Source of the DNA: a virus
Length of the DNA: 25,730 bases
Virus record (IMG/VR): IMGVR_UViG_3300030106_006042
Coordinates: 1,887-27,616 of that record
Reading direction: 5' to 3' (one strand)
Shown here: piece after piece, positions 6,851-23,293 of the stretch
How positions within the stretch are numbered: position 1 is the first letter of the stretch
Layout of the letters: the number at the start of each line of letters is the position of its first letter
The notes under the pieces: generated by a model
The model's database searches: none
The model's input: the letters and a program-made list of their open reading frames with translations, nothing else
What the model was told of the DNA's origin: nothing
Position numbers and translations under genes: made by a program

Positions 6851-8503
6851 TTAAACGTAGTTAACATCAGCAACGATTACCTTACCGTAGAACTCTGGTC
6901 TCACGATTTTCTTAGCGTAACGTGTCATTACACCTTTACGTGGAGTAAAGTTCTTAGGGTCGTATACAAGAGGAGTCATAATTAACGGTACATATGGAGC
7001 GTAGACCGCACCTGTTTCGAGGAAGTTACTTCCACGAAAACCTACCAAGATTACATTCTCGAACTGATAAGGGTTCTTATAGACTGTAAATCTATTGTTA
7101 ATTAAACCTGCCTTCTGTACACCCATAGCATACTGAGTCTTTGTAGAATCAGCATCACTATCTGAACTATATCCTGGTATTGACTCAAGGATTGTAGCGA
7201 CTTCAGGACTTACTACGATGAAGTTTGCACCACCACGTAGGGTCTTCTGATGAATCGCATTAGATACGGACTGTATCTTGTTACCTAGAGTTTGAAACCA
7301 CTCACCCTTTGAGTAAGCGTTTGATGCACCAGATGATTCAGCAAAAAGAGTACTTACAGGATCGTATTCGTATCCGACTCTTGTGCTCCAACGTTCTGTC
7401 TTCGCATTAGCGTTTAGATAAAGCATGTCTAGGATTTCTAAGTCGATTTCCATAGAAACGTACTCACTAAGTAGTGAAGTAAGTTCTGCTTCAGCGTCTA
7501 CACTATGGTAAGCATTAAGGTCTTGAGCAAGCTCAGGAGTCCATACTGCTTTTAACTTACGTGTTTTCGCAACGATAGCGATTGAACGCATTGATATATC
7601 GATTTCTGGTATATCAATATCGGTTTCAGGATTTGCACTAACACCAGCTGATGAAGCTTCAAAGTCACCACGAGTGATGTCTGTTGGTTGCTTATGAAAC
7701 AGTACTGATGCTGTCTGACCTGCGGATATACTTCCTTCGTCTACGATAAATCGTATGTGAGAAGCACCTGCATCAGATGGATTAACTTCGTTTCCGTCCG
7801 AACCATCTAATACTTTGTTATATGCAGGATAGTAAGCAGTCAAAGCGGATGAAGCTGTTATTTCAAAAGCTTTGATACCTTCTAAATCAGGATTTGTAAG
7901 TGTTGATATTGGAATATCATAGAATTTAAGATTATCCAATGAGCTAGATAAATCTGGCTCAAAATCAACATCGGCCCAACTAACTGAACCGGTTAAGGCT
8001 GCTACAGCCTGAGCAGTACCAGTGAAGTCATTGATAGAATATCCTGACCTACCAGCTCCGTAGAGACCACCGCTTGGGTCAGCATCTGAACCAGAAGTAA
8101 CACCGAACACTTGTTCACCGTCACTAAATCCAGCCTGAGCTGATCCGTATTTAAAATCAAGATAGAAAATAAGTCCACTTGGTAGATTCATAGGTTGAAC
8201 ACTTACGAACTCCTGAGCTGCTAACTCACCAAAGATTTTTCTAACCAATGGGAGTGCAACACCAGACCATTCTTCAGAGTTAGCGGAAGTACCTGTGTGA
8301 CTAGATTCGTCGATTAACTGACGAGCCTGGTTTTCAAGAAGTACTGCCATACCACTTACTTTTTGCTCTGTGCTCAAACCTTCTAACAAGCCAGTGGGTT
8401 CCCACTTCTTGATTAAACCACGAGTTTCCTCTTGTCGCTGCTTGTACGGATTATATCCATCCATCAATTTCTCGACTGCTCCGAGGTTTTTATGATTTGA
8501 CAT
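6851..8503 (-). CDS. gp23: Major capsid protein gp23
   Basis: A 550-residue protein (T4 gp23 is 521). The prodomain matches T4: KKWEPTGLLEGLSTEQK and VLLENQARQLIDE parallel T4 KWKPLLEGEGLPE and IFENQ. The conserved mature N-domain signature VSVQPMNLPSGLIFYLDFKYG-type sequence (near residue 100) corresponds to T4 VQPMNSPTGQVFALRAVYG. LIDE ends at residue 66, almost exactly where T4 gp23 is cut (after residue 65), so mature protein probably begins at S67. The HK97-fold body includes the E-loop/P-domain region and a C-terminal segment ending FYGKVIVADVNYV. GGAG sits eight bases before the ATG; a strong terminator follows. It forms the hexamers of the head shell. Confidence 0.95.
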   Translation of the reverse strand: MSNHKNLGAVEKLMDGYNPYKQRQEETRGLIKKWEPTGLLEGLSTEQKVSGMAVLLENQARQLIDESSHTGTSANSEEWSGVALPLVRKIFGELAAQEFVSVQPMNLPSGLIFYLDFKYGSAQAGFSDGEQVFGVTSGSDADPSGGLYGAGRSGYSINDFTGTAQAVAALTGSVSWADVDFEPDLSSSLDNLKFYDIPISTLTNPDLEGIKAFEITASSALTAYYPAYNKVLDGSDGNEVNPSDAGASHIRFIVDEGSISAGQTASVLFHKQPTDITRGDFEASSAGVSANPETDIDIPEIDISMRSIAIVAKTRKLKAVWTPELAQDLNAYHSVDAEAELTSLLSEYVSMEIDLEILDMLYLNANAKTERWSTRVGYEYDPVSTLFAESSGASNAYSKGEWFQTLGNKIQSVSNAIHQKTLRGGANFIVVSPEVATILESIPGYSSDSDADSTKTQYAMGVQKAGLINNRFTVYKNPYQFENVILVGFRGSNFLETGAVYAPYVPLIMTPLVYDPKNFTPRKGVMTRYAKKIVRPEFYGKVIVADVNYV

Positions 8504-10022: not shown

Positions 10023-10676
10023 CTAATCAGTCTCGTTGTCTGCTTTATAGTTTTTATCAACATAGTTGAAGAATTTTTTCTTTTCATCATCATCTAAATC
10101 CGCTGGAGATTTAATACCAAACTTTTTCATCGCCTTTTGAAAAAACTCTTCATATGCATTCTCTTCAATATCGTAAGTCTCTACATCATCGGAATCATGT
10201 CCGTAGACGTGGGTTTCTCCTATCTCATAGTATCTACCTAGGATGTTACCCATATCTTCATACAGAGCACCTAATCTTTCCTGTAAAGACTTTGACTCTT
10301 GAGCTATCTTGCCAAACTGTTTTGATAAACCTGTCAATTCTTTCATATTACGATTGACCGTAATCTTATCAAACCAATCATCAGTTTCTTGGAGAGTATG
10401 TGATTTAGCCGATTTAGCAATCCAACTCAATTTTTCCGATATTTTAGATATATTTGATTTACCAAATATAGCTTCACCGATTCCGTTGTAGGATGATATT
10501 TCCTTAGTGAGTTGTTTTACATCAACCTTTTCTTCATCAATATCACCATACTTTTCTTTTACCATGTTGGATAAACTCATCTCTTCACCAAAGGCGTTTC
10601 TAGAGACTACACCACCCATCATAGTACCAGTAAAGTTTTCTTTCAGTAAATCCTTTAACTTGATTTTTTTAGACAT
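10023..10676 (-). CDS. Putative prohead core/internal protein (217 aa)
   Basis: This 217-residue helical, charged protein starts MSKKIKLKDLLKENFTG. That short amphipathic head ending in 'LLKE' resembles the capsid-targeting leaders of T4 internal proteins. The middle is predicted coiled-coil (MKELTGLSKQFGKIAQESKS). The C-terminus is FFQKAMKKFGIKSPADLDDD and FFNYVDKNYK, a segment I associate with small core-type proteins of marine T4-like phages. SD AGAGG is eight bases before the ATG. It lies between gp21 and gp22, where T4 has nothing. Role as a scaffold-associated or packaged protein is inferred. Confidence 0.8.
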   Translation of the reverse strand: MSKKIKLKDLLKENFTGTMMGGVVSRNAFGEEMSLSNMVKEKYGDIDEEKVDVKQLTKEISSYNGIGEAIFGKSNISKISEKLSWIAKSAKSHTLQETDDWFDKITVNRNMKELTGLSKQFGKIAQESKSLQERLGALYEDMGNILGRYYEIGETHVYGHDSDDVETYDIEENAYEEFFQKAMKKFGIKSPADLDDDEKKKFFNYVDKNYKADNETD

Positions 10677-11261: not shown

Positions 11262-12281
11262 CTACAAACTAGTATACATACCAGTATGTTTGGTGAACAT
11301 TCCACGAAGGTCGTCTGCGTAAACTCCCTTGACTTTAGCTTTTACCTTTACACCCCTCACGGATACAAAGTTAAAATACATATCGTACAAATCTTTACCT
11401 CTATCTAAATCTATTCTTACGTAGTTTACATTTTTAGCATTTCTACCAATCTTGAAACCCATTCCCTTTGGGCCTACTACGAAATTCTTTGCACCGGTCA
11501 TAGCGATAAAACGATTACCACCCAACTGTTTTAAGGTCTCACCTGCCTGTCTCTTATCCATTCTTTCATTTACGGATTCATTGACATCGCTCTTACCAGT
11601 TAGTTTGTATCCTAATTGTTCAGCGTTTTCTTTTCTAGCTTTTTCGAATTTTTTCTTTTTAGAACCTTTGAGTTCACCACCAAAACCTTCCAATCCATCG
11701 TAATCCTGATAGATACCTCTACCTTTTAATTTGATTTTTTTTACTTTTTTTTTTAAACGAGTGGCTTTATTTTTCTCAATTTTTTTCAATAATCTATTAC
11801 TTATACTTTCAGCTTGACCACCGAACTGTCTTGCGTAGAAACTAGCGTCCGCTTTTGATTGTTTCTTCGGTTCGGTTTTTTTCTTTTTTGCTTTGGATAG
11901 CATCGCCTTAGCTCTATCCTTAATTCTATCTATTATACCTTTTGCCTTTTTATGCTGAGGATGACTTTTATTCGATAGTGCGGTTGCGACTTTTACCTTT
12001 TTACCACCACCTGTTGAGAGTTCTTTTTCTTTAGCCCTTGCCATAGCAGCTCTGACACCAGCAGCGATGGCAGCAGGATTTTCGAAAAGTTTATTTTCAC
12101 TTTTAACTCTTGTTGGTAATCCTTTATGTTTCGTCGAAGCATATTTCTTCACGTCTTTCCCTTTCATACTCTTTGCGGCGTCTCGTGCTTTCTTTGAAAA
12201 TTTTGATGCCGGTGCATCTCCTTTTTGTATCGCCCTAACGATACCCATAAACTTTTGTTGTTTTTTCGATAACGAGGGCAT
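11262..12281 (-). CDS. Modular basic protein: DUF3008 N-terminus plus conserved phage C-terminal domain
   Basis: This 339-residue protein has three parts. Residues 1-60 (MPSLSKKQQKFMGIVRAIQK, SKKARDAAKSMKGKDVKKYA, STKHKGLP) match the small phage DUF3008 family. The Lys-rich middle (about 65-230) is nucleic-acid-binding in character. The C-terminal ~100 residues (LGGNRFIAMTGAKNFVVG, FKIGRNAKNVNYVRIDL, GMFTKHTGMYTSL) form a domain that often stands alone in other phages. The linkers carry (L/V)xE sites: KLFE/NPA near residue 67 and DVNE/SVNE/R before the C-terminal domain. ATG overlaps the previous stop as TAATG. I infer a head-core protein processed by gp21, with the basic part possibly contacting DNA. 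Confidence 0.85.
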   Translation of the reverse strand: MPSLSKKQQKFMGIVRAIQKGDAPASKFSKKARDAAKSMKGKDVKKYASTKHKGLPTRVKSENKLFENPAAIAAGVRAAMARAKEKELSTGGGKKVKVATALSNKSHPQHKKAKGIIDRIKDRAKAMLSKAKKKKTEPKKQSKADASFYARQFGGQAESISNRLLKKIEKNKATRLKKKVKKIKLKGRGIYQDYDGLEGFGGELKGSKKKKFEKARKENAEQLGYKLTGKSDVNESVNERMDKRQAGETLKQLGGNRFIAMTGAKNFVVGPKGMGFKIGRNAKNVNYVRIDLDRGKDLYDMYFNFVSVRGVKVKAKVKGVYADDLRGMFTKHTGMYTSL

Positions 12282-12589
12282 TATTTTAATTTTTTAGTTA
12301 GTTTAGCAGCTTCTCTCATGAAGTTGGTAACATTATCTTTATATAATTTTTTGAGTTGTTTTGCAATCTCTCTATTCTCTGGTCTGGCGTCACGTAAGAA
12401 AGCTTGTTCCAATTTAAACATCTTATCTCTTAATCCACCTTCTTGTTTCGCTAAAGACTGAAACTTCTTCTTAGCCCTTGCTTTATCCTCTATGGATTCG
12501 TTGACCGAGCAACAATCACCACCACACTCACAATTTGACTTACGAAACTCGTGCCAAGTGTCCATGACTTTTCGATTGAGGTAACTCAT
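12281..12589 (-). CDS. Small Cys-rich core protein (102 aa)
   Basis: A 102-residue protein joined to its neighbours by TAATG overlaps at both ends. Near the N-terminus is a dense cysteine cluster, CECGGDCC (C20, C22, C26, C27), directly followed by SVNES, a candidate prohead-protease site. The remaining ~70 residues are basic and helical (KKKFQSLAKQEGGLRDKMFK to the Lys-rich end KLTKKLK). A metal or disulphide role for the cysteines is possible, but no family is recognised. A GAGGGGA SD inside the end of the protease gene precedes ATG. It is co-translated with gp21 and the modular basic protein, suggesting a prohead function. Confidence 0.8.
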   Translation of the reverse strand: MSYLNRKVMDTWHEFRKSNCECGGDCCSVNESIEDKARAKKKFQSLAKQEGGLRDKMFKLEQAFLRDARPENREIAKQLKKLYKDNVTNFMREAAKLTKKLK

Positions 12590-13200
12590 TAGCTTCCCCT
12601 CATAATGTCGTTGATTACTGATTCAACTTTACAGTAATCACCACATGTCCTACCGACTATCTTAGACTCATTTATTGATTCATTGGTTGGATGTAAGAAA
12701 GCTCCGTGTGTTGATGGGTTAGAAACGAAATCAAACGCTATAAGTTCGAAGTCAGGTTGTACCTCTTGTGCTTCACCCTCGTTAACTGATTCAACCGAAC
12801 CCATTCCACGAGAACTGATACCTAACTTGATACCACTTTTGAATAATTCTTTCAATATATTACCACTAGGTGTACCTAAAACTTCGACCGTACCCATTAA
12901 GTTATCGCCTTCAAAGTGCATTTCCTTGACATTATGAGAAACATTTTGTAAATTAACGACAGACGATTCAGGATGGTCTAGCTCACCCATGGCTCTTCTT
13001 TGATTTATAAATTCATCTGTGTATTTTTTAGCTTCTCTTACTAGTATTTCTTTTGGATAGATTCTACCGTTTTGATTCTTAGACTCGGCACGTTGTAAAA
13101 CACCCTTAACAATTAACTTACCATTGTTACCCTTCATGGATTCGTTAATTTGCTCTGGTTTTATTTCAAACGGCAAATAATCTACTATTAATTGTTTCAT
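12589..13200 (-). CDS. gp21: Prohead core protease gp21
   Basis: A 203-residue serine protease of the T4 gp21 type (herpesvirus-assemblin-like fold). H76 lies in MGELDHPESS and the nucleophile in GISSRGMGS (S129/S130), with the following FDFVSNPS typical of the family. T4 gp21 has 212 residues. It degrades the core and trims gp23 after (L/I)xE. Its own sequence holds candidate sites at INE20/S21, VNE141/G142 and TNE174/SINE177/S178, consistent with the self-processing known for T4. A C-terminal tail follows, with CGDYC. The ATG overlaps the previous gene as ATGA, with GGGAAGAG as SD. It lies between portal and scaffold as in T4. Confidence 0.93.
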   Translation of the reverse strand: MKQLIVDYLPFEIKPEQINESMKGNNGKLIVKGVLQRAESKNQNGRIYPKEILVREAKKYTDEFINQRRAMGELDHPESSVVNLQNVSHNVKEMHFEGDNLMGTVEVLGTPSGNILKELFKSGIKLGISSRGMGSVESVNEGEAQEVQPDFELIAFDFVSNPSTHGAFLHPTNESINESKIVGRTCGDYCKVESVINDIMRGS

Positions 13201-13393: not shown

Positions 13394-13831
13394 TTACTGT
13401 AATTGACCGACCTTGTTCGCTAGTTTTACTAACCTTTCACTAACTCTACGTAACGCCTTATGGGTATTTTTCCAATATGACCTTGAATCTACATTCAATT
13501 CATTTTTCAAACGAACGTTCATTTTGACTAATTTATCTAATTCATTCAGGCTATCTCTGATTTCTCTCATCGACTTACCAATTTTTTGTTTTGGTGTCAT
13601 TGATTCATCATTACGATATTCATGATATTTTCCTTCATGAACTTTTGTATACCCACCTGCCTGTGCAATTTTTTTCTTTTTCTCTTTATCTTTTTTACGC
13701 CCACCGTAAAAAGCATAAGGAGTTCTAGGTGGGCCTTCACCACCATCGAGATTACCCGTAACAGATACCTCTTCCAATTCTTGTCTGATTAACTCTCTGA
13801 TTATCTCTTTGAGTTTATCCTTTGTGGACAT
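13394..13831 (-). CDS. Putative prohead core protein (145 aa)
   Basis: I chose the ATG at 13831 (MSTKDKLKEIIRELIRQEL) over the upstream one at 13855, because AAGGAG stands eight bases before it. It overlaps the previous gene by 17 bases. The protein has a helical head, then a VSVTGNLDGGEGPPRTPYAF stretch of the kind seen after the N-terminal helix in marine phage core proteins, a very basic patch (GGRKKDKEKKKK), and a C-terminal coiled coil. Two candidate gp21 sites (KVHE/GK and RNDE/SM) lie between the basic patch and the coil. It occupies the T4 gene 67/68 region. A core function is inferred. Confidence 0.8.
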   Translation of the reverse strand: MSTKDKLKEIIRELIRQELEEVSVTGNLDGGEGPPRTPYAFYGGRKKDKEKKKKIAQAGGYTKVHEGKYHEYRNDESMTPKQKIGKSMREIRDSLNELDKLVKMNVRLKNELNVDSRSYWKNTHKALRRVSERLVKLANKVGQLQ

Positions 13832-14684
13832 TCTTAATCTCCTTAATAAGTTCATAATATCTCATCAAAGATAAAACTTGCTTTTCGTTGACAATTTTAC
13901 CTTTTGTCAAATTTTCTATTTGATTGATTGCTTCTGTCAATTTGATACTTGTAATTTTATCATCTACCCTAGGTAACTCTTTTTTCAATACTGATTTTAT
14001 ACGAGTAACCTCTTTATCAACATATTCTCTTAATGAATTAGTGTTACTGATATTATTAATATAATTCTTAAGTAGTTTCTTTTGGGATTCGTCAAGTGAT
14101 TTGTACTTTTTGTTGAATTTATCTACTAGTATTTCATAAGCTAGTAATCTTAAATCCTTATCTTGTTTACTATATTCAGCGATTACCTTTTGTTTTATTT
14201 TTTCATCATCTATCTTTTTGTGAGTTATATGTTCCAAAACAGTAAATTTAGAATTGACCAATTGGTCAGCTTTAAATTTCTCATCAGTAGTCTCGGATTG
14301 AAAAATATTATAGATGGATGCTAATAATCTATAGTTAGGTATTCTACCGTTGAAAAAATCTGTAACATTATAATTTTCTTTAATCGAACTAATCAAATTA
14401 TACTTTTCTCGACGTAGGTCTGAGTTGTTTAGGTTTTGTCTTTGTTTTATAACCACATTTAATAAATCATTAGCTTTGACTTCTGAATTATAATTTTTTT
14501 CTGATAATAACTTATAGAGTTCAAGTTCTTTACCTAACTCCGTCTTTTCATTAAAAAATTTCTTCAATATACCAACTGACTTTGTTGATTTTCCGGCTAA
14601 CACATCTGCTGTGATTTGTCTTGTCAATAATTCAAAAAGAATACCAGTATTCTTAATTTTTGAATGTTTTATTTTTCGAGCCAT
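13815..14684 (-). CDS. Conserved head-region protein after the portal gene (289 aa)
   Basis: A 289-residue Lys/Glu-rich, nearly all-helical protein with no enzyme motif. Its N-terminus (KIKHSKIKNTGILFELLTRQ, then ADVLAGKST and ILKKFFNEKTELGKELELY) is a pattern I associate with an uncharacterised protein that follows the portal gene in marine T4-like phages. The C-terminus ends KGKIVNEKQVLSLMRYYELI. A GGAG sits nine bases before the ATG. The 60-base gap upstream carries a promoter-like octamer, so it may head a block running through gp21. It is probably a core or portal-associated assembly factor; this is inference from position. Confidence 0.82.
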   Translation of the reverse strand: MARKIKHSKIKNTGILFELLTRQITADVLAGKSTKSVGILKKFFNEKTELGKELELYKLLSEKNYNSEVKANDLLNVVIKQRQNLNNSDLRREKYNLISSIKENYNVTDFFNGRIPNYRLLASIYNIFQSETTDEKFKADQLVNSKFTVLEHITHKKIDDEKIKQKVIAEYSKQDKDLRLLAYEILVDKFNKKYKSLDESQKKLLKNYINNISNTNSLREYVDKEVTRIKSVLKKELPRVDDKITSIKLTEAINQIENLTKGKIVNEKQVLSLMRYYELIKEIKNVHKG

Positions 14685-14744: not shown

Positions 14745-16586
14745 TTAGTCATTTGATTTACCATTACTGAAAGAACTTACCTCATTTTGATACTCTTCTT
14801 CTAATTCTGATACCTCAGTTATGATTTCTCTATCTTTTTTGTTAAAATTCATTGATTTCTTAAGGGAATCGTAATGTGATAGGGCTAAAGCCTTACCATA
14901 CTTAGGAGCACCACTACCACCTTTTTTCTTATCGTGAGCTCCCAAAGGGTCTCGTCCTCTCGCTCCACTATCTTTTCCATATTTATTTGGTTCCTTGGGT
15001 CTTCCAGCACCTGGCTGTCCACCCTCTTCTGAACCACCTTCGTCATCCAACTCATGACCGGTTCTTCCCAACGCTAAATCTGACGGTGTACCTTGTGATT
15101 CGCCACTCTCAGCAGGGTCGTTACCCTCTTGTTCAATTTGTTGTCTTCTAAATTTATTTTTATAATCAAATGTAATTTGTTTATCCATCTCTTTAATTTC
15201 GTCCTCTGTGAAGTTGAAGATATTTTTATATATCCATTCGGACGAACATAGCCCGTCTCTTAACATCGAATCAGCCAAAGAAGTTTTATTATTCCAAAGT
15301 TCAATTTTTTCTTGTTCATATATCGTTGATGGGTTAGTCAAAGTCAATTCAAAATTTGTTAATTCTGCATCTTGATATCCTTGTGCGTATAAATGAACTA
15401 TAGCAATCTTTGTTAACTCTGAAAGAGTAATTCTCTGTATCCTTTCTATAGTTCTAGCAAAACGAACATCCTCTGCAGCTAGAGTGGCCTTGGAACCGAT
15501 TTGATCTTCGAACCCTAGGAATGCTTTAGGTATCCTAAGTGCAGATAATAATTTATTCTTCAAATACTCGATATCATCTGTCGCTTCATATGTCAAACCT
15601 GGCAAAGAATCTATACTCGTACCACTATCCCCACCACGGACAGGTAAAAAGAAATCCTCGGTAATATTTTGCATATTGTATTTCAGATTATAATCACCGG
15701 TAGTCTCATCGACAACAGGTGCTTTCTTCATTTTATTGATGACTTGTTGCATGTAATTATCAACTTCCGCTGGTGGTATGTTACCTATGTCGAGTTTAAA
15801 TACTCTTTTTTCGGGTGCTCTCATGATACGATGGATTAACATCGCATCTTCCATCAAGGTCAATTGTTTATATATTTTACGAGCCCCCTCTACTTGTGAT
15901 TTACCATAAGGTAAATAATTAGAGTCCGATAGTAATCTAAAATGTGCGACTTCATAGTTTTCTAATTCTTCTTTGGTGGATGATTGTTCGGCTTTGTATC
16001 TGTGTTCTGCCGTCGCAGCCTCTATTAAAAATTTCACATATTCAGGATTTTCAGGATCTAAACCCTCCAATCTAGACACATCATAAACAGAAAGTGGAAC
16101 AACATTGGTGATACCGTACTTTTCGTCTATCTCTAACTTCAAAAAGAAGTCACCATACTTACACATGTTACGAATCCATGGCCAAAGATTGAATTCAATA
16201 TTAACGATATCGTAGAATAGATTGTGTAGTATTTCTTTAATTTGGTCATTATCTGTCTGAATCTGTAAAACCTCACCGTATTCGGATTTCATTGTTGATT
16301 CATCGGAATATATATCTAGAGCCGATGATATTATAGCATCGGAGTCCATCGCTTCATAATCCTTAAATAGATTCAATCTCATTGATTTTGTCATCAAGGC
16401 ATCGGAGTATCCACTCAGTCCGGCACCTGTGAAAATCTTTTGATATCTATCGACAAGATTACTTTTTGCATAAGCTTGTGTGCGACTAGTATCACTTACC
16501 TTTAATTTTCTACCACCGACGTTTCTAACAACAACATTGGTTGAAAATAATCTTCTTAATCTACTGAATAAACTTGTATCAGCCAT
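14745..16586 (-). CDS. gp20: Portal protein gp20
   Basis: This 613-residue protein (T4 gp20 has 524) follows terL and precedes the core and protease genes. Portal-family features include YEAMDSDAIISSALDIYSDE near residue 75, MRAPEKRVFKLDIGNIPP, the NMQNITEDFFLPVRGGDSGT segment, YLKNKLLSALRIPKAFLGFE and the following QIGSKATLAAEDVRFARTIE. The extra length is mostly a Gly/acidic low-complexity region (about residues 490-560) before a helical C-terminus. It forms the dodecameric ring through which DNA enters and nucleates the prohead. ATG lies four bases after the terL stop, with AGAGG inside the terL end. Confidence 0.94.
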   Translation of the reverse strand: MADTSLFSRLRRLFSTNVVVRNVGGRKLKVSDTSRTQAYAKSNLVDRYQKIFTGAGLSGYSDALMTKSMRLNLFKDYEAMDSDAIISSALDIYSDESTMKSEYGEVLQIQTDNDQIKEILHNLFYDIVNIEFNLWPWIRNMCKYGDFFLKLEIDEKYGITNVVPLSVYDVSRLEGLDPENPEYVKFLIEAATAEHRYKAEQSSTKEELENYEVAHFRLLSDSNYLPYGKSQVEGARKIYKQLTLMEDAMLIHRIMRAPEKRVFKLDIGNIPPAEVDNYMQQVINKMKKAPVVDETTGDYNLKYNMQNITEDFFLPVRGGDSGTSIDSLPGLTYEATDDIEYLKNKLLSALRIPKAFLGFEDQIGSKATLAAEDVRFARTIERIQRITLSELTKIAIVHLYAQGYQDAELTNFELTLTNPSTIYEQEKIELWNNKTSLADSMLRDGLCSSEWIYKNIFNFTEDEIKEMDKQITFDYKNKFRRQQIEQEGNDPAESGESQGTPSDLALGRTGHELDDEGGSEEGGQPGAGRPKEPNKYGKDSGARGRDPLGAHDKKKGGSGAPKYGKALALSHYDSLKKSMNFNKKDREIITEVSELEEEYQNEVSSFSNGKSND

Positions 16587-16589
16587 TTT

Positions 16590-18179
16590 TTACCTCTTAT
16601 CTAGTAACCAATCTAGTGATTCTGGTCTTTTATTGATTTCCATAGTCCAAGAATCATTGATATTTTGTTTAGGAGTGTATACACCTTGATTAGATGTTAT
16701 ACTACTCATAGCTTTCTTCTGTAATTCAATTCCCTCTGCTCTTAATCTTAACGCAGTTTCTCGTATCCATAATCCCATAGCGTAAGACATTACAAGGTCG
16801 TCATTATAGCCGGACATTGCCTCTGCTCTACTACCATTATATATAAATACAAACAACTCATCAATTAGTCGATTCGAACGAACTGTAACTAATCTTTCTC
16901 TGAAAAATTCTTCTAACTTAGCAATCACTAACGGTCTTGTTTTTTGTGTTAATGTGAAACCAGGTACGAGTTGTTTTTCAGCTCTGTTAATTTTATTGTT
17001 GACCTGTCTATGTACATCAACAACTTGTAAATCTTTACTCATATAAAAGAGATTTTGATATTCCCTATCAATACATTGTTGTAGAGTCGCCCAACCTATG
17101 TTGTTATTTTCAATCACAAGTAAAGCGTCATTATATTCGATTGATATGTTAACTAAAAGATTTCCAAAATCTCGTGTGGACATTCTACCTTTATATTCAG
17201 CGACTTGTTCTAAACTTTCTATATCAAGAATGTGAAAAGCAGAATAATCCGATGAATCACCACGACTTACATCTGCACATACTATATAATCCTTTGTATA
17301 GTTTGGTGGCTCCCATATCCAAACATTACTATCAATACCTCTTTTTTCAATCGGTTCTCTTACTTGATTGTTTTTATATTCCTCAAGAATCAGACCATCG
17401 ACGACCGATTGACCAGATGTGATAAAGTCACAATCACATTCTTGTGCTGCTAATGATGGGCCTAACAAAGAATCTTGTTCTTTTCTCCAATCATCTCCTC
17501 TTTCGGGATGAACAGTCCAATGTAGTTTGATAAAATTGAAATCATTCAATCCATCTTCGGAATCCATCCAAGTTCTATGAAACCAATTTCCTACACCGTT
17601 TGGTGTGGATAGTGCTATACATTGACCACCAGTGGATAGTGTCTGTGATGCAGCAGCCCATATTGTATCAATTTTATCTATGAATGCAGCTTCATCGAGA
17701 ACTAACAATGATAATGCCTCTGAACGACCTGCATCCTCTCCACTCGATACAGCCTTTATCTGTGAACCATTTTTATATCTCAGAGATAATTTATTATCCT
17801 CAACACATTTTTGTTTCAACCAAGACGGTAGATTAGCATGCATCACCCTAACTTTTGTGACTAGATTTTTAGCGACTTCTTGTTTAGTAGCAATAACCAA
17901 AATATTTTTATCTTGATGAAATGTCATCATCCACAGAGAATAACCAGCCGTAATCGTTGATATACCTAGTTGTCTTGCTTTTAAAATTATGTTGAAACGG
18001 TGTTGCACGAAGTCTTCAATTGTTTTTTCTTGAAAATCGTAAAGTGCGAAAGGTATCTTACCTTTTATCGGATGCTGTATAAAACAGTATCTTTTCAAAA
18101 AGTAGATAGGGTCTGAGGCGCATTTTACATACTCCTTCCTTATGACATCTTTCAATTGTCCTTTTTGGTTTCTCTTCAT
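16590..18179 (-). CDS. terL: Terminase large subunit gp17
   Basis: A 529-residue packaging motor ATPase and nuclease. The N-terminal ATPase has a Walker A-like KARQLGIST (K67 onward), Walker B LLVLDEAAF (D162, E163) and a coupling-type ALSTPNGVGNWF near residue 190. The C-terminal RNase H-like nuclease has D303 in CADVSRGDSSDYS, E357 in VIENNN and D460/D461 in GYNDDLVMS, the three acidic positions of T4 gp17. T4 gp17 is 610 residues. It is separated by three bases from the gene before it, and SD is weak, suggesting coupling. Directly next is the portal gene. In T4, genes 18 and 19 stand between them. Confidence 0.96.
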   Translation of the reverse strand: MKRNQKGQLKDVIRKEYVKCASDPIYFLKRYCFIQHPIKGKIPFALYDFQEKTIEDFVQHRFNIILKARQLGISTITAGYSLWMMTFHQDKNILVIATKQEVAKNLVTKVRVMHANLPSWLKQKCVEDNKLSLRYKNGSQIKAVSSGEDAGRSEALSLLVLDEAAFIDKIDTIWAAASQTLSTGGQCIALSTPNGVGNWFHRTWMDSEDGLNDFNFIKLHWTVHPERGDDWRKEQDSLLGPSLAAQECDCDFITSGQSVVDGLILEEYKNNQVREPIEKRGIDSNVWIWEPPNYTKDYIVCADVSRGDSSDYSAFHILDIESLEQVAEYKGRMSTRDFGNLLVNISIEYNDALLVIENNNIGWATLQQCIDREYQNLFYMSKDLQVVDVHRQVNNKINRAEKQLVPGFTLTQKTRPLVIAKLEEFFRERLVTVRSNRLIDELFVFIYNGSRAEAMSGYNDDLVMSYAMGLWIRETALRLRAEGIELQKKAMSSITSNQGVYTPKQNINDSWTMEINKRPESLDWLLDKR

Positions 18180-19087: not shown

Positions 19088-22000
19088 CTAAACGAACTTT
19101 AACATTCCTAAAATTTGATTCGCTGGTGCGAAAGCACCAGTATACTTATACAACTTACCCTTGAACACGAAGGTGATACCCTCTGTTGGAACCACCGCCT
19201 TTAAACCACCTATTGCTTTTAATCTATCGAGTTGTGTCTTAAGTGTATTGATGACCTTTGGGTCTTTTGATGTTTTTACTTGTTTTATTGCCTTAGCTAA
19301 ATCTTTTCGAATCTTTTGTGCTGCTTTATCAGGATTCGCTGCTATGAAATCAGATAGATTTGATAATATCTCTGCACCTAACTCGAAAAATAAAACCTCC
19401 CAATCTCTGATATGTTTTTTTTGTAAGCCTTGTAGGTCTGTTTTATCGGTACGAAGCACCCAATTCAAGAAATTTTTATTTGTTATTTCACGTCTTATAT
19501 CAGGTACTCTATAAGATTTATCTAAGAATGCCCATCTTTTTGTTAATTTACCCAAAACATTATTAGGTATATTGTATTTATATTGTTTCGCTGCATTGAA
19601 TATAAACTCTGTCCAATAAGCCTGATGATAATCAGCTAAGGTATCCGTACCTCTCAATGCGAATTGTTTTTGTAATCTATTTAGTTTACCGATAAAGTAT
19701 TTTTGTTTTCTACTAAAATCCTTCACTTGTGGTAATTTAGATATAAACGGTTTTTCAATTTTAAACGCTTTTTGTATATCTTGATTTATCTGTTTAATCA
19801 TACCGGCTAACATCCTAGCACTACCTCTGTCCTCTCCGATTGGGGAACCGTCGGTATCATATTCAATCGTACCGTGAAACTGTAATAGGGCTTTATCATA
19901 AGGTATTACATTTGCAGTCTTCGGATAAATAACCTCTAAAGACATAAATTTTTTACCATCATCAAATATTTTTTCTTTTTGTTTATCACTAAGTTTACCG
20001 ATAGCTTTTTGTAAATCCCTCATGGCGAATACAAATGCTTTTTCTATATCTCCACGACCAGCAAACATCGATTGAATACCACTAATGTCTGGTGCGTTTG
20101 CCCCATGATTCTTTATATGACCTTTATTTCTAGCAGCGATAAGTTTGTTGTTTTTCCAACTTATCATTATGTTCTGACCATCTGTTTTTTCTGTGACTGC
20201 ACCCTCTTTGTCTAATTTACCTTGTAGGGTATTAATAATTAGTGTTTTAAAATCTGAAAATGTAAGATTTTTGTCATCAAAAGGATGGTTCAAATGTCCG
20301 TAAGCTCCACCCTCTAGTAACACACCTTCTTTAAAATTTTTATCATCACTTTTTTGGTCATTTGATTTTATATAGGTTCCATCTTTTGATTTAAAATATA
20401 CGTCGGCGTCATCTTCGTTTTCCTTACCTTTTAATTTATACCTACCGAAACCAATCGAAACATATTTGTGGTCTCTTGACGGTAAAAGTTTTTTCCTTTC
20501 CCCAATCAAGATTTCTACTTCTTCATTTAAATTTATCTCTTTTAGTTTTAATTTTTGTTTTTCTGTATTACCAACATTATCATCACCGATACCTGGTACC
20601 ACTGGAGTCTCCACCTCTACACCGGTATAATTATTACCATCTGGTGTAATACCCATCCATTTTACCAACTCATACCCAATATTATGCAATACAGTTCCTT
20701 CTATATAATTTTTATAGGATTTTATTGGATTGTCTGTACCAAATCTAGTACCATATTTACCAGATTGTTTACGACCATAAGCTACAGCAGGAACTACATT
20801 GTATTTGAGGGTGTAATCATAATCAGGATTTATCGCATGTTTTCCTAAAATATATTGTACGACTTCCCAACCAGTATCACCGTACATATCATCCAACCAT
20901 CTTTTGGATTGATTCTTATAATCATTGAAACCTCTGTAGAAAGTTGGTGGGCCGTCATCTGTTGGGTTTATCGCGGTCAAACTTGCTTCGTTGACTAATT
21001 CTTTAAAATCTGTGTTGATAACGAAACCCTCTATACCCTCGTATAACTTTCTGAATTTATTCGTCATCATGTTATATATACCTTGGTCGAAGTATCCAAA
21101 AACCTTTTTAAAAGATTTTTTTCTTTCCTTATCATCTATTCTTGGGTCACCCAATAAAGACCTCATCTTAGTACCACTCATGTTACCGAATTGTGGTGCA
21201 GTGATAAAATATCCATGTTCTTTATATCCTCGGATGTCCTCTCTACTTTTCTTGTAATCACGAAAATATTTACCACCCCTTAATCTACCAGCATCTTTCT
21301 GTCCAAAAGCATAAACAACCGCGGTGGTTTCAGGATTGAATTTTTTTGTTACGTTATCAGCAACGTATGGTGACCTTTCTTGTATGATTCTATTTTTAGG
21401 TATTCCCATCTTAACCATATGACGTACTTTTTCCTTAAAATTCATTGGGTGTCTAGGGAGTTGTTTGATGTTAGAAGTCGTTATATAAGCCTCATCAACC
21501 TGTTTAGACAACCATTTATATGTTGCAAGATGTCCACTATGAAATGGTTGAAACCTACCACCGAATACACCGATGGTTTTTTTAATTTCTTTTTGTTCAT
21601 TTATCCCTAATTTTTTTCGTAGAGAACCGATTTTTTTAATGAGTTCTTTCTGTTTAGAAGAACCAGGTATCATTTTAAAAGCTTTATTATATAACTTAAT
21701 TAATTCTGTTTTATTATCTTCCCCTATAACATCGTACCCTATGAGAGCCATTGCTAAATCTCTATCAGAATCTCCTCTGAATTTTTTTGCTACTTTTTTA
21801 TAATTCTTTTTAATCATAGCGGATGCTTTCTTCGGAGACTTTCCAACCATTACTAAAATTTTATGTATGGAATCAATTGTTTTTTTATTTTCATCTACTT
21901 TCTTATAACCACTGCCATAAGGAACAGATGTGTTACCACGTTTCTTCATCTTCTTAACCATCTTACGACTTGGTGACGGTATGTTACCACCGTAGAGTTT

Positions 22001-23293
22001 CGCGGCTACAGTCGCGAAATCCTCGTTCTTTTTCTTTGTTTTCTTTTTCATCTTATTGATATAAGCTCGGTAGACAGCTGCTTGTGAAGCCTTACCCATC
22101 TCACGAGCTCTCTGTTCCATTGCAACCGCCGCCTGTATCTTGTGAGCATGACTCCTACCGCTGTTTCTAATCTTACTGACCGAGGCTCTCGCATCTTTGA
22201 CGGTAGCGAACTTTAATCCTTTGATAGTACCTTTCGGATTTTCATCCGTGTATAAATCGGAATGAGATTTGGAACCTCTGTGTTGTCCTTTCTTTCTAGG
22301 AACCCTAGGTGCCTCGTCTACATTTTTCATCGTACGAATCGTCGTTATCTTTTTTCCATTTATCGTTGGCATACCATGGTCGTCTTTTCCAATTGACTTA
22401 ACAACAACTTTTTTATTTTTGAATCTACCGGTAAGGATAGTATCACCAACTTTTATCGGAATATTTATGGATTCGAAAAACTTCGACTGGCCAGGATCTT
22501 TGAATATTTTAGAGTGTTTCTTTTCTCTCCGTATCCATTTTTTAGCTATCTTATTCTTCGGTGGTTTTTTTAGGAATTTATCAATCCCCTTACTGACCAA
22601 CATCTTGAAATGTTTTTTAATCTGAGCATCGGATAACATTTTATTGTTCTGTACAATCATAAAATTAGCACCACCGAATAAACCTTGGAAAGCACCTAGA
22701 TTCGATTGTACATCCTCCCAACTTTTTTTGACAATCGCGTCGGGTACAACCCTATCTCTTTTTTCATTTCGTTCTCTGGCAATCTTCAATGATGTGTTGA
22801 CAAAGACCATGTAGGTATCGTAACCCATATCCATCAGTTCTTTTCTTCTCTTTTTAATCTTTTCGAACTTATGACCAGTACCATCTATGATGACACCCAA
22901 CTTACCCTTGGTATAAAGTCTTAATCTTTCTTGACTCAAATCCTTTGCAAATTTTCTCAATCCACTTGTATCGTAATCAACAGGCTTACCTTGTTTGTCC
23001 ACACCAGTCAAGTCTTGAAATAAATCATCAGGCATATTATCGATATCCGTAGTACCAAAGTATTTTTTCAACAACATCTCTAGTTCAGAGTCTTGATTGA
23101 CCATCTTTAGACCAGTCTTCGATACGTTTATCTTTTCAGGTATACCGAATAACTTCTGTGCTACGAAAGACTTACCGCTACCAGGTCCACCGGCGAGGAA
23201 TATAGCTTTGAAGATGCCAGGATCTCTGACACCCTCTTCTATAATATCTTGTTCTAAAAATGGTTTTGTCAACCATTCGGTCAATTTATTCAT
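19088..23293 (-). CDS. Giant multidomain protein: P-loop kinase-like, HIGH nucleotidyltransferase and ligase-like domains
   Basis: 1401 residues. (1) Residues 30-220: Walker A AGGPGSGKS, GVIIDGTGH near 135, and a RNEKRDRVVPDAI lid-type segment, as in zeta-toxin/T4 polynucleotide-kinase-like P-loop kinases. (2) About 280-320: small beta domain (IKVGDTILTGRFKNKKVVVK). (3) 330-560: basic helical segments. (4) 573-745: cytidylyltransferase-like domain with GVFGGRFQPFHSGH and MSGTKMRS, the two motifs of NMN adenylyltransferase relatives. (5) 770-900: unknown domain. (6) 990-1401: KTDG at 1036-1039, ARNKG at 1054-1058, SLEVI at 1118-1122, EGITF at 1371, KLYK at 1380, matching ligase motifs I, Ia, III, IV and V. 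Linkers carry (I/V/L)xE sites. ATG directly follows the muramidase stop. Activities are predicted only. Confidence 0.9.
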   Translation of the reverse strand: MNKLTEWLTKPFLEQDIIEEGVRDPGIFKAIFLAGGPGSGKSFVAQKLFGIPEKINVSKTGLKMVNQDSELEMLLKKYFGTTDIDNMPDDLFQDLTGVDKQGKPVDYDTSGLRKFAKDLSQERLRLYTKGKLGVIIDGTGHKFEKIKKRRKELMDMGYDTYMVFVNTSLKIARERNEKRDRVVPDAIVKKSWEDVQSNLGAFQGLFGGANFMIVQNNKMLSDAQIKKHFKMLVSKGIDKFLKKPPKNKIAKKWIRREKKHSKIFKDPGQSKFFESINIPIKVGDTILTGRFKNKKVVVKSIGKDDHGMPTINGKKITTIRTMKNVDEAPRVPRKKGQHRGSKSHSDLYTDENPKGTIKGLKFATVKDARASVSKIRNSGRSHAHKIQAAVAMEQRAREMGKASQAAVYRAYINKMKKKTKKKNEDFATVAAKLYGGNIPSPSRKMVKKMKKRGNTSVPYGSGYKKVDENKKTIDSIHKILVMVGKSPKKASAMIKKNYKKVAKKFRGDSDRDLAMALIGYDVIGEDNKTELIKLYNKAFKMIPGSSKQKELIKKIGSLRKKLGINEQKEIKKTIGVFGGRFQPFHSGHLATYKWLSKQVDEAYITTSNIKQLPRHPMNFKEKVRHMVKMGIPKNRIIQERSPYVADNVTKKFNPETTAVVYAFGQKDAGRLRGGKYFRDYKKSREDIRGYKEHGYFITAPQFGNMSGTKMRSLLGDPRIDDKERKKSFKKVFGYFDQGIYNMMTNKFRKLYEGIEGFVINTDFKELVNEASLTAINPTDDGPPTFYRGFNDYKNQSKRWLDDMYGDTGWEVVQYILGKHAINPDYDYTLKYNVVPAVAYGRKQSGKYGTRFGTDNPIKSYKNYIEGTVLHNIGYELVKWMGITPDGNNYTGVEVETPVVPGIGDDNVGNTEKQKLKLKEINLNEEVEILIGERKKLLPSRDHKYVSIGFGRYKLKGKENEDDADVYFKSKDGTYIKSNDQKSDDKNFKEGVLLEGGAYGHLNHPFDDKNLTFSDFKTLIINTLQGKLDKEGAVTEKTDGQNIMISWKNNKLIAARNKGHIKNHGANAPDISGIQSMFAGRGDIEKAFVFAMRDLQKAIGKLSDKQKEKIFDDGKKFMSLEVIYPKTANVIPYDKALLQFHGTIEYDTDGSPIGEDRGSARMLAGMIKQINQDIQKAFKIEKPFISKLPQVKDFSRKQKYFIGKLNRLQKQFALRGTDTLADYHQAYWTEFIFNAAKQYKYNIPNNVLGKLTKRWAFLDKSYRVPDIRREITNKNFLNWVLRTDKTDLQGLQKKHIRDWEVLFFELGAEILSNLSDFIAANPDKAAQKIRKDLAKAIKQVKTSKDPKVINTLKTQLDRLKAIGGLKAVVPTEGITFVFKGKLYKYTGAFAPANQILGMLKFV

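Follow-up and report, generated by a model that had tools for sequence, protein, structure and literature searches.

What a protein of 1401 residues does in the head gene cluster of a T4-like phage, and whether it is meant to remain in one piece, is the question raised by a 25.7-kb stretch (25,730 nucleotides, hereafter the window) of the 30.3-kb virus record IMGVR_UViG_3300030106_006042. The source virus appears to be a marine T4-like myovirus infecting bacteria; among cultured phages, Microcystis phage Mel-JY01 and Flavobacterium phage immuto come closest to it, with ~52-55% identity in TerL and gp23. The open reading frame (ORF) of the giant protein is real; it lies on the minus strand (Table 1), starts with ATG and is free of internal stops. 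An earlier note on this DNA had read it as a polyprotein with sites for the prohead protease gp21 in its linkers. Our comparisons of sequences support this interpretation overall, and we regard the ORF as probably encoding a late, head-destined cargo polyprotein that is processed by gp21 and whose enzymes would be injected with the DNA.

Placement of the motif among shuffled modules

The protein was divided into ten modules (K, S, H, P, X1, X2, N, M, Z and C). The nine hydrophobic-x-E sites named in the earlier note are all present and read as it gave them: IIEE20/G, FFE274/S, VDE327/A, VDE468/N, INE566/Q, LYE752/G, VNE769/A, LNE924/E and LLE994/G. In total, [ILVFM]xE occurs 24 times in the protein against 17.8±3.5 in shuffled sequences (p=0.05). 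Since this raw count is near chance, it is not evidence in a single protein, and it would also suit an ordinary cytoplasmic multidomain enzyme of RNA repair or nucleotide chemistry, in which E-rich linkers generate the motif by composition. We therefore tested the placement of the motif with the help of relatives.

A scan of viral contigs gave 80 homologous loci, and profiles made from ten pieces of the protein revealed dozens of architectures among them, for example K-S-H-P-N-M-C, S-K-H-P-N-M-C, H-S-K-P-N-M-C and P-N-C. Among these loci the modules are shuffled, lost, duplicated, inserted or carried as separate genes. Module S stands first, second or behind H depending on the relative, X1 is found in a minority of relatives in variable order, and the Z profile matched only the sequence of this phage, so that this module is nearly specific to it.

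At the junctions of these modules, [ILVMF]xE was present in 204 of 240 distinct 15-residue windows (85%), compared with 8.9% of 2095 intramodule windows; shuffling the residues within each of the 240 junction windows gave 100.5±7.2, with a maximum of 126 in 500 shuffles. The control patterns [ILVMF]xxE, Ex[ILVMF] and [ILVMF]xD were seen at 53%, 53% and 13% of the junctions, respectively. A hold-out of 127 further loci, fetched by modules H and K alone and counted only for previously unseen windows, had the motif in 135 of 155 new junction windows versus 7.4% inside modules (null 63±5.6, maximum 80 in 1000). When distinct kinase junctions were anchored on the glutamate as P1, P3 was L, I, V or M in 38/38 (L or I in 32) and P2 was polar or small, being hydrophobic in 0/38; a hydrophobic P3 precedes 23% of the intramodule glutamates as background. 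In fact, all 38 distinct starts of module K are preceded by [LIVM]xE/G. Microhomology of the DNA at junctions, as the source of a common E codon, would not account for a hydrophobic P3 together with a free P2.

A cytoplasmic enzyme would be in keeping with the kinase, ligase and nucleotidyltransferase modules, all suited to repair in the cytoplasm, and with the single-module homologues of HTVC008M, which lie near replication genes. However, the enrichment at junctions exceeds both the composition-matched shuffles and the spacing controls, the kinase starts have a hydrophobic residue always at P3 and never at P2, and the ORF is located inside the head gene cluster. We consider this explanation highly improbable.

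Leaders, the prohead protease and virion proteins of relatives

Of all parts of the proposed polyprotein, the leader with its site has the strongest support. Complete relatives have the leader M(N/D/K)KLTEWLTKPFLxE in common with different modules behind it: the kinase (L024, L002), the KOW-like S (L017, L007, L014) or the PRVPRKKGQ module H (L020, L022). Standalone kinase genes carry leaders of 8-55 residues, such as MIKLKDLLAE/G, MIPFILKE/G and MKTFAELQE/G, and in 16/16 of these genes the leader ends in [ILV]xE/G exactly where the kinase fold begins. For comparison, the T4 ipII/ipIII leader reads MKTYQEFIAE/A. Standalone cyanophage genes have similar starts (MKTYNDFITE/V, MKSYKQFLSE/S, MKTFKQYITE/A), and two of these genes hold modules of the mosaic found upstream of terL. 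The protein thus has the N-terminal leader of 10-20 residues ending in (L/I)xE that marks internal head proteins processed by gp21, and the idea of a T4-type leader in the earlier note is strengthened: one leader precedes different modules, and standalone modules as well as virion proteins of relatives also have leaders. In T4 IPIII, processing of the leader depends on residues 8 and 10, that is P3 and P1, and D at P1 blocks it (PMC9026906).

The phage encodes a gp21-type protease of matching specificity. As the earlier note had proposed, the same type of peptide is found at the expected cut of gp23 and at both termini of gp21, and it is mostly kept in relatives. The gp23 site is QLI(D/K)E/(S/A) in 11/11 sequences (QLIDE66/S in this phage, plus 10 relatives). 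The sites of gp21 itself in the window are QINE20/S and SINE178/S; the N-terminal one is retained as hydrophobic-x-E/(S/A) by 16 gp21 relatives and is QI(N/S)E/(S/A) in most of the 17 sequences, with KIDE/S in one and QIQE/S in another, and the C-terminal one is a hydrophobic-x-E followed by S or G, which in some relatives reads VNE or MSE/G. The protease was present in 16/16 sampled records of relatives. Residues ~136-146 of gp21 form an internal loop of variable length with VNE141/G (VNE, VSE, IDE or MHE in relatives), possibly an extra self-cleavage site.

Relatives of single modules or of the mosaic have been detected in cyanophage virions. Mass spectrometry found the cytidylyltransferase T4-GC190 in virions of S-SM1 (PMC3037559) and the cyanophage cytidylyltransferase in those of S-CREM2 (PMC10665884) and S-SZBM1 (PMC9146016). 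Their N-termini are MKKFSAFLNE/A in S-SM1, MKNFSSFLTE/A in S-CREM2 and MRFRQFIIE/A in S-SZBM1; the S-CREM2 enzyme is only distantly homologous to module N (E 3e-5). The virion of S-CREM2 also contains gp137, a T4-GC119-related mosaic encoded directly upstream of terL and detected by four peptides (4% coverage; PMC10665884). This protein has modules in common with S-SM2_109 and Bellamy gp123, two T4-GC119 proteins whose N-termini are 78-80% identical to module H. Direct homology of the 1401-residue protein to gp137 was sought and not found; the two are linked only via the modules of S-SM2 and Bellamy.

The strength of the leader evidence would also fit a protein from which gp21 removes the leader alone, to be delivered otherwise uncut as a multidomain effector, in the manner of the polyvalent proteins of other phages, which are multidomain and head-packaged (PMC5512222). 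Nevertheless, the internal junctions have the same P3/P1 pattern as the leader junctions. The modules also occur as genes with leaders of their own, which suggests that they act separately. An uncut effector seems unlikely to us.

Conservation of the sites and points against cleavage

Among the individual sites, the glutamate is 100% conserved at E20, E274, E566 and E769, 95% at E919, 85% at E327 and 73% at E994, and less at E468 (69%) and E924 (30%); only 20, 274, 566, 769 and 919 stand out individually. At INE566 the identity of P3 is 8%, and at VNE769, where E is kept in 100% of 37 sequences, it is 0%. The choice of site 924 in the earlier note was consequently not sustained, position 919 being the conserved one; LKE919, KKNE424 and IGE525 were absent from its list.

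These data bear on a third explanation, in which once-separate head proteins with LxE leaders were fused and the sites are relics, internal cutting being incidental or partial. Fusion is plausible because standalone modules with leaders exist, and some sites have been lost (LLLMG). The internal junctions, however, mostly retain a motif of 3-4 residues and not a whole leader, and while E is fixed at 20, 274, 566 and 769, P3 and P2 vary at 20, 566 and 769, which suggests selection on the site itself. We find a mere relic very unlikely.

In AF2 models, segments with a predicted local distance difference test score (pLDDT) below 50 hold 18/23 motif glutamates versus 20/43 other glutamates (p=0.012). 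They include all nine named sites, which thus lie outside confidently predicted folds, as the polyprotein reading anticipated.

Several observations speak against a cargo polyprotein cut by gp21. The AF2 models are of low confidence (mean pLDDT 54 and 59). The junction windows are not fully independent because relatives share ancestry, and the number of different upstream contexts weighs more than the window count. Some motif matches are to be expected because the linkers are E/K-rich. Certain junctions lack the canonical motif: KKKNE/ behind H, KDE/AA, and LLLMG before C. The virion evidence from S-CREM2 gp137 consists of 4 peptides of a protein homologous to cyanophage modules and not directly to ours, and the S-CREM2 authors warn that such proteins may co-purify (PMC10665884). 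Finally, the idea that the motif is conserved only in linkers stood in part. Sites are placed between and not inside folded units (85-87% of junctions versus 7-9% of intramodule windows), but in a pooled comparison the linker motif glutamates showed no higher conservation than the remaining residues of the linkers (0.64 vs 0.56, p=0.28).

At the start of module C, LLxE/GG reads LLLMGG in L013, L024, L040, L043, L063 and L064, apparently a loss of that cut site; some of these loci retain another hydrophobic-x-E upstream.

Proposed cargo modules, neighbouring genes and related systems

The several domains announced in the earlier note were recognised. Two pass Pfam cut-offs: an AAA_33/Zeta-type P-loop kinase in K (residues 31-203; AAA_33 2.7e-9), with the kinase domain of Clostridium Pnkp as top Foldseek matches (4gp6/4gp7, E 1e-4), and CTP_transf_like in N (residues 576-664; 1.9e-8), where TIGR00125 (3e-7) is also above its cut-off. 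Module N resembles NadM in Foldseek (2qjo, E 1e-3) and shows both HIGH-nucleotidyltransferase motifs, GxFxPxHxGH as GRFQPFHSGH and SxTxxR as SGTKMR; by motifs and family match we assign it as a putative NMNAT/HIGH nucleotidyltransferase. The C-terminal part is RNA_ligase-like in relatives: 16/38 of them matched PF09414 with E<=1, 0.003 being the best value, and the sequence from the window had no such match. The EKTDGQN of module C (cf. the KxDG motif) is nearly invariant across relatives. Its match to T4 Rnl2 in Foldseek was weak, the C-terminal model had no confident Foldseek match apart from phage homologues, and a search of the module C sequence against solved structures returned chance ribosomal matches only. 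We read module S as a probable small KOW/SH3-like beta domain. No peptidase family of Pfam, NCBIfam or PHROGs matched the 1401-residue protein.

Table 1. Positions in the window of the modular protein, its parts and the head genes
Feature	Positions	Strand	Remarks
Whole ORF, modular 1401-aa protein	19088..23293	-	stop codon 19088-19090
Leader, residues 1-20	23234..23293	-	MNKLTEWLTKPFLEQDIIEE; predicted capsid-targeting propeptide; end IEE20/G
Module K, residues 21-274	22472..23233	-	polynucleotide-kinase-like P-loop kinase; end FFE274/S
Module S, residues 275-327	22313..22471	-	end VDE327/A
Module H, residues 328-424	22022..22312	-	PRVPRKKGQ...; end KKNE424/D, non-canonical P3
Module P, residues 425-468	21890..22021	-	PSPSRKxVKKMKKKG...GYKK; end VDE468/N
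Module X1, residues 469-525	21719..21889	-	helical; end IGE525/D
Module X2, residues 526-566	21596..21718	-	helical; end INE566/Q
Module N, residues 567-752	21038..21595	-	NMNAT/cytidylyltransferase-like (GRFQPFHSGH, SGTKMR); end LYE752/G
Spacer, residues 753-769	20987..21037	-	end VNE769/A
Module M, residues 770-924	20522..20986	-	LKE919 and LNE924 at end
Module Z, residues 925-994	20312..20521	-	end LLE994/G
Module C, residues 995-1401	19091..20311	-	RNA-ligase-like nucleotidyltransferase (EKTDGQN ... VPTEGITF)
terL	16590-18179	-	
gp20	14745-16586	-	
gp21 prohead protease	12589..13200	-	proposed cutter; PHROG 207 head maturation protease 5e-54
gp23 major capsid protein	6851..8503	-	expected propeptide cut QLIDE66/S

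Some relatives enlarge the set. L045 and L048 (polyproteins at L045:5965-10737 and L048:2-5206) have an extra CCA-adding/poly(A)-polymerase module (PF01743, E ~1e-30), bordered by VTE/N or INE/N and by ILNE/R or VINE/A; L045 encodes the kinase apart from the polyprotein, in a gene that has a leader of its own. A 1701-residue relative (L017:5959-11064) holds an extra module of ~300 residues between LITE/DWW and LLLE/GG. Phage immuto (L247) encodes the large mosaic proteins immuto26A_183 and immuto26A_192, namely an NMNAT fused to further domains and an 841-residue protein with a helical module next to NE sites that, by eye, seems common with cyanophage S-SM2_109.

The head cluster is of T4 type, with terL, gp20, gp21, a gp22-like acidic protein and gp23 on the minus strand, and the giant ORF is placed in it two small ORFs upstream of terL. 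A 339-residue protein of this cluster (11262-12281, minus strand) is a second mosaic member: the polyprotein of L048 also contains its residues ~195-235 (GFGGELKGSKKKKFEKARKENAEQLGYKLTGKSDVNE), and the PHROG 9437 domain at its C-terminus begins directly after VNE235/S / VNE239/R. The protein at 10023-10676 (minus strand) is a further candidate for head cargo because its N-terminus, MSKKIKLKDLLKE/N, has IKLKDLL in common with the standalone kinase leaders. Two small proteins flanking gp21 on the minus strand, at 13394-13855 and 12281-12589, have the candidate sites QELEE29/V and SVNE31/S and are possibly core or cargo proteins.

Among known systems, the T4 internal proteins IPI, IPII, IPIII and Alt share with the 1401-residue protein a short leader ending in hydrophobic-x-E, with P3 and P1 constrained, as well as the head gene cluster and the presence of gp21. 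Unlike them, with one mature protein per gene, our protein has many modules per chain, a site at most junctions and a shuffled order. Polyvalent proteins such as DarA/DdrB of phage P1 (Iyer et al. 2017, PMC5512222) are likewise multidomain, mosaic and predicted to be injected with DNA, and multiple conflict-related enzymatic domains (kinase, nucleotidyltransferase, RNA-ligase-like, with the CCA-adding module in relatives) are found here in a single chain. Some polyvalent proteins are proteolytically trimmed, and their cleavage is ascribed to metallopeptidases embedded in them (PMC5512222); in contrast, no embedded peptidase (zincin/papain) was found here and the sites fit the phage's own gp21. 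In phiKZ and SPN3US, a gp21-related protease cuts many inner-head and ejection proteins after x-x-E, sometimes multiply, but their multiple sites lie in discarded propeptides (PMC5694885). In the portions of these two reports covered here, processing of polyvalent proteins by a prohead protease is not proposed (PMC5512222), and neither describes such a protease freeing several enzymes from a single precursor (PMC5512222, PMC5694885), nor do the portions covered on T4 internal proteins. Literature searches for an enzyme polyprotein cut by a prohead protease found none, which is weak evidence of absence. The T4-GC119 mosaics of cyanophages (S-SM2_109, Bellamy gp123, S-CREM2 gp137) also lie just upstream of terL and have NE/DE linkers; S-SM2 and Bellamy share module H and the S-CREM2 member is in the virion, but they have other module sets (DUF192, DUF6321) and are annotated merely as hypothetical proteins.

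We propose that the leader would act as a capsid-targeting sequence of T4 type, docking the chain in the prohead core, and that gp21, active inside the prohead, would cut behind hydrophobic-x-E between the modules to yield about ten pieces. The freed polynucleotide-kinase-like, NMNAT-like nucleotidyltransferase and RNA-ligase-like enzymes, together with several small domains, may then stay with the phage DNA and pass into the host when infection begins. There they could serve in immediate-early RNA/tRNA repair, and possibly NAD maintenance, against host defence; we take this as the most likely job because the CCA-adding module joins the set in relatives, although a role in RNA/tRNA repair and NAD chemistry as infection sets in is the least certain step and is put forward tentatively.

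For marine T4-like phages in general, we lean, with some reserve, towards a head-cargo polyprotein with one leader and gp21 sites between exchangeable enzyme modules, which would be cleaved inside the prohead and delivered as an injected RNA-repair/NAD kit. If true, a DNA phage would be using its capsid protease to process a polyprotein of several enzymes, and many enzymes would be loaded modularly into T4-like heads through one targeting signal. As the exact cut sites are predicted, the proposal is testable by virion proteomics, and the leaders and the junction motif could also guide the search for head cargo in the genomes of other phages. It would also explain why marine phages encode giant mosaic 'hypothetical' proteins upstream of terminase, and abundant ocean viruses would be given likely injected immediate-early counter-defence functions, namely RNA/tRNA repair and NAD synthesis.

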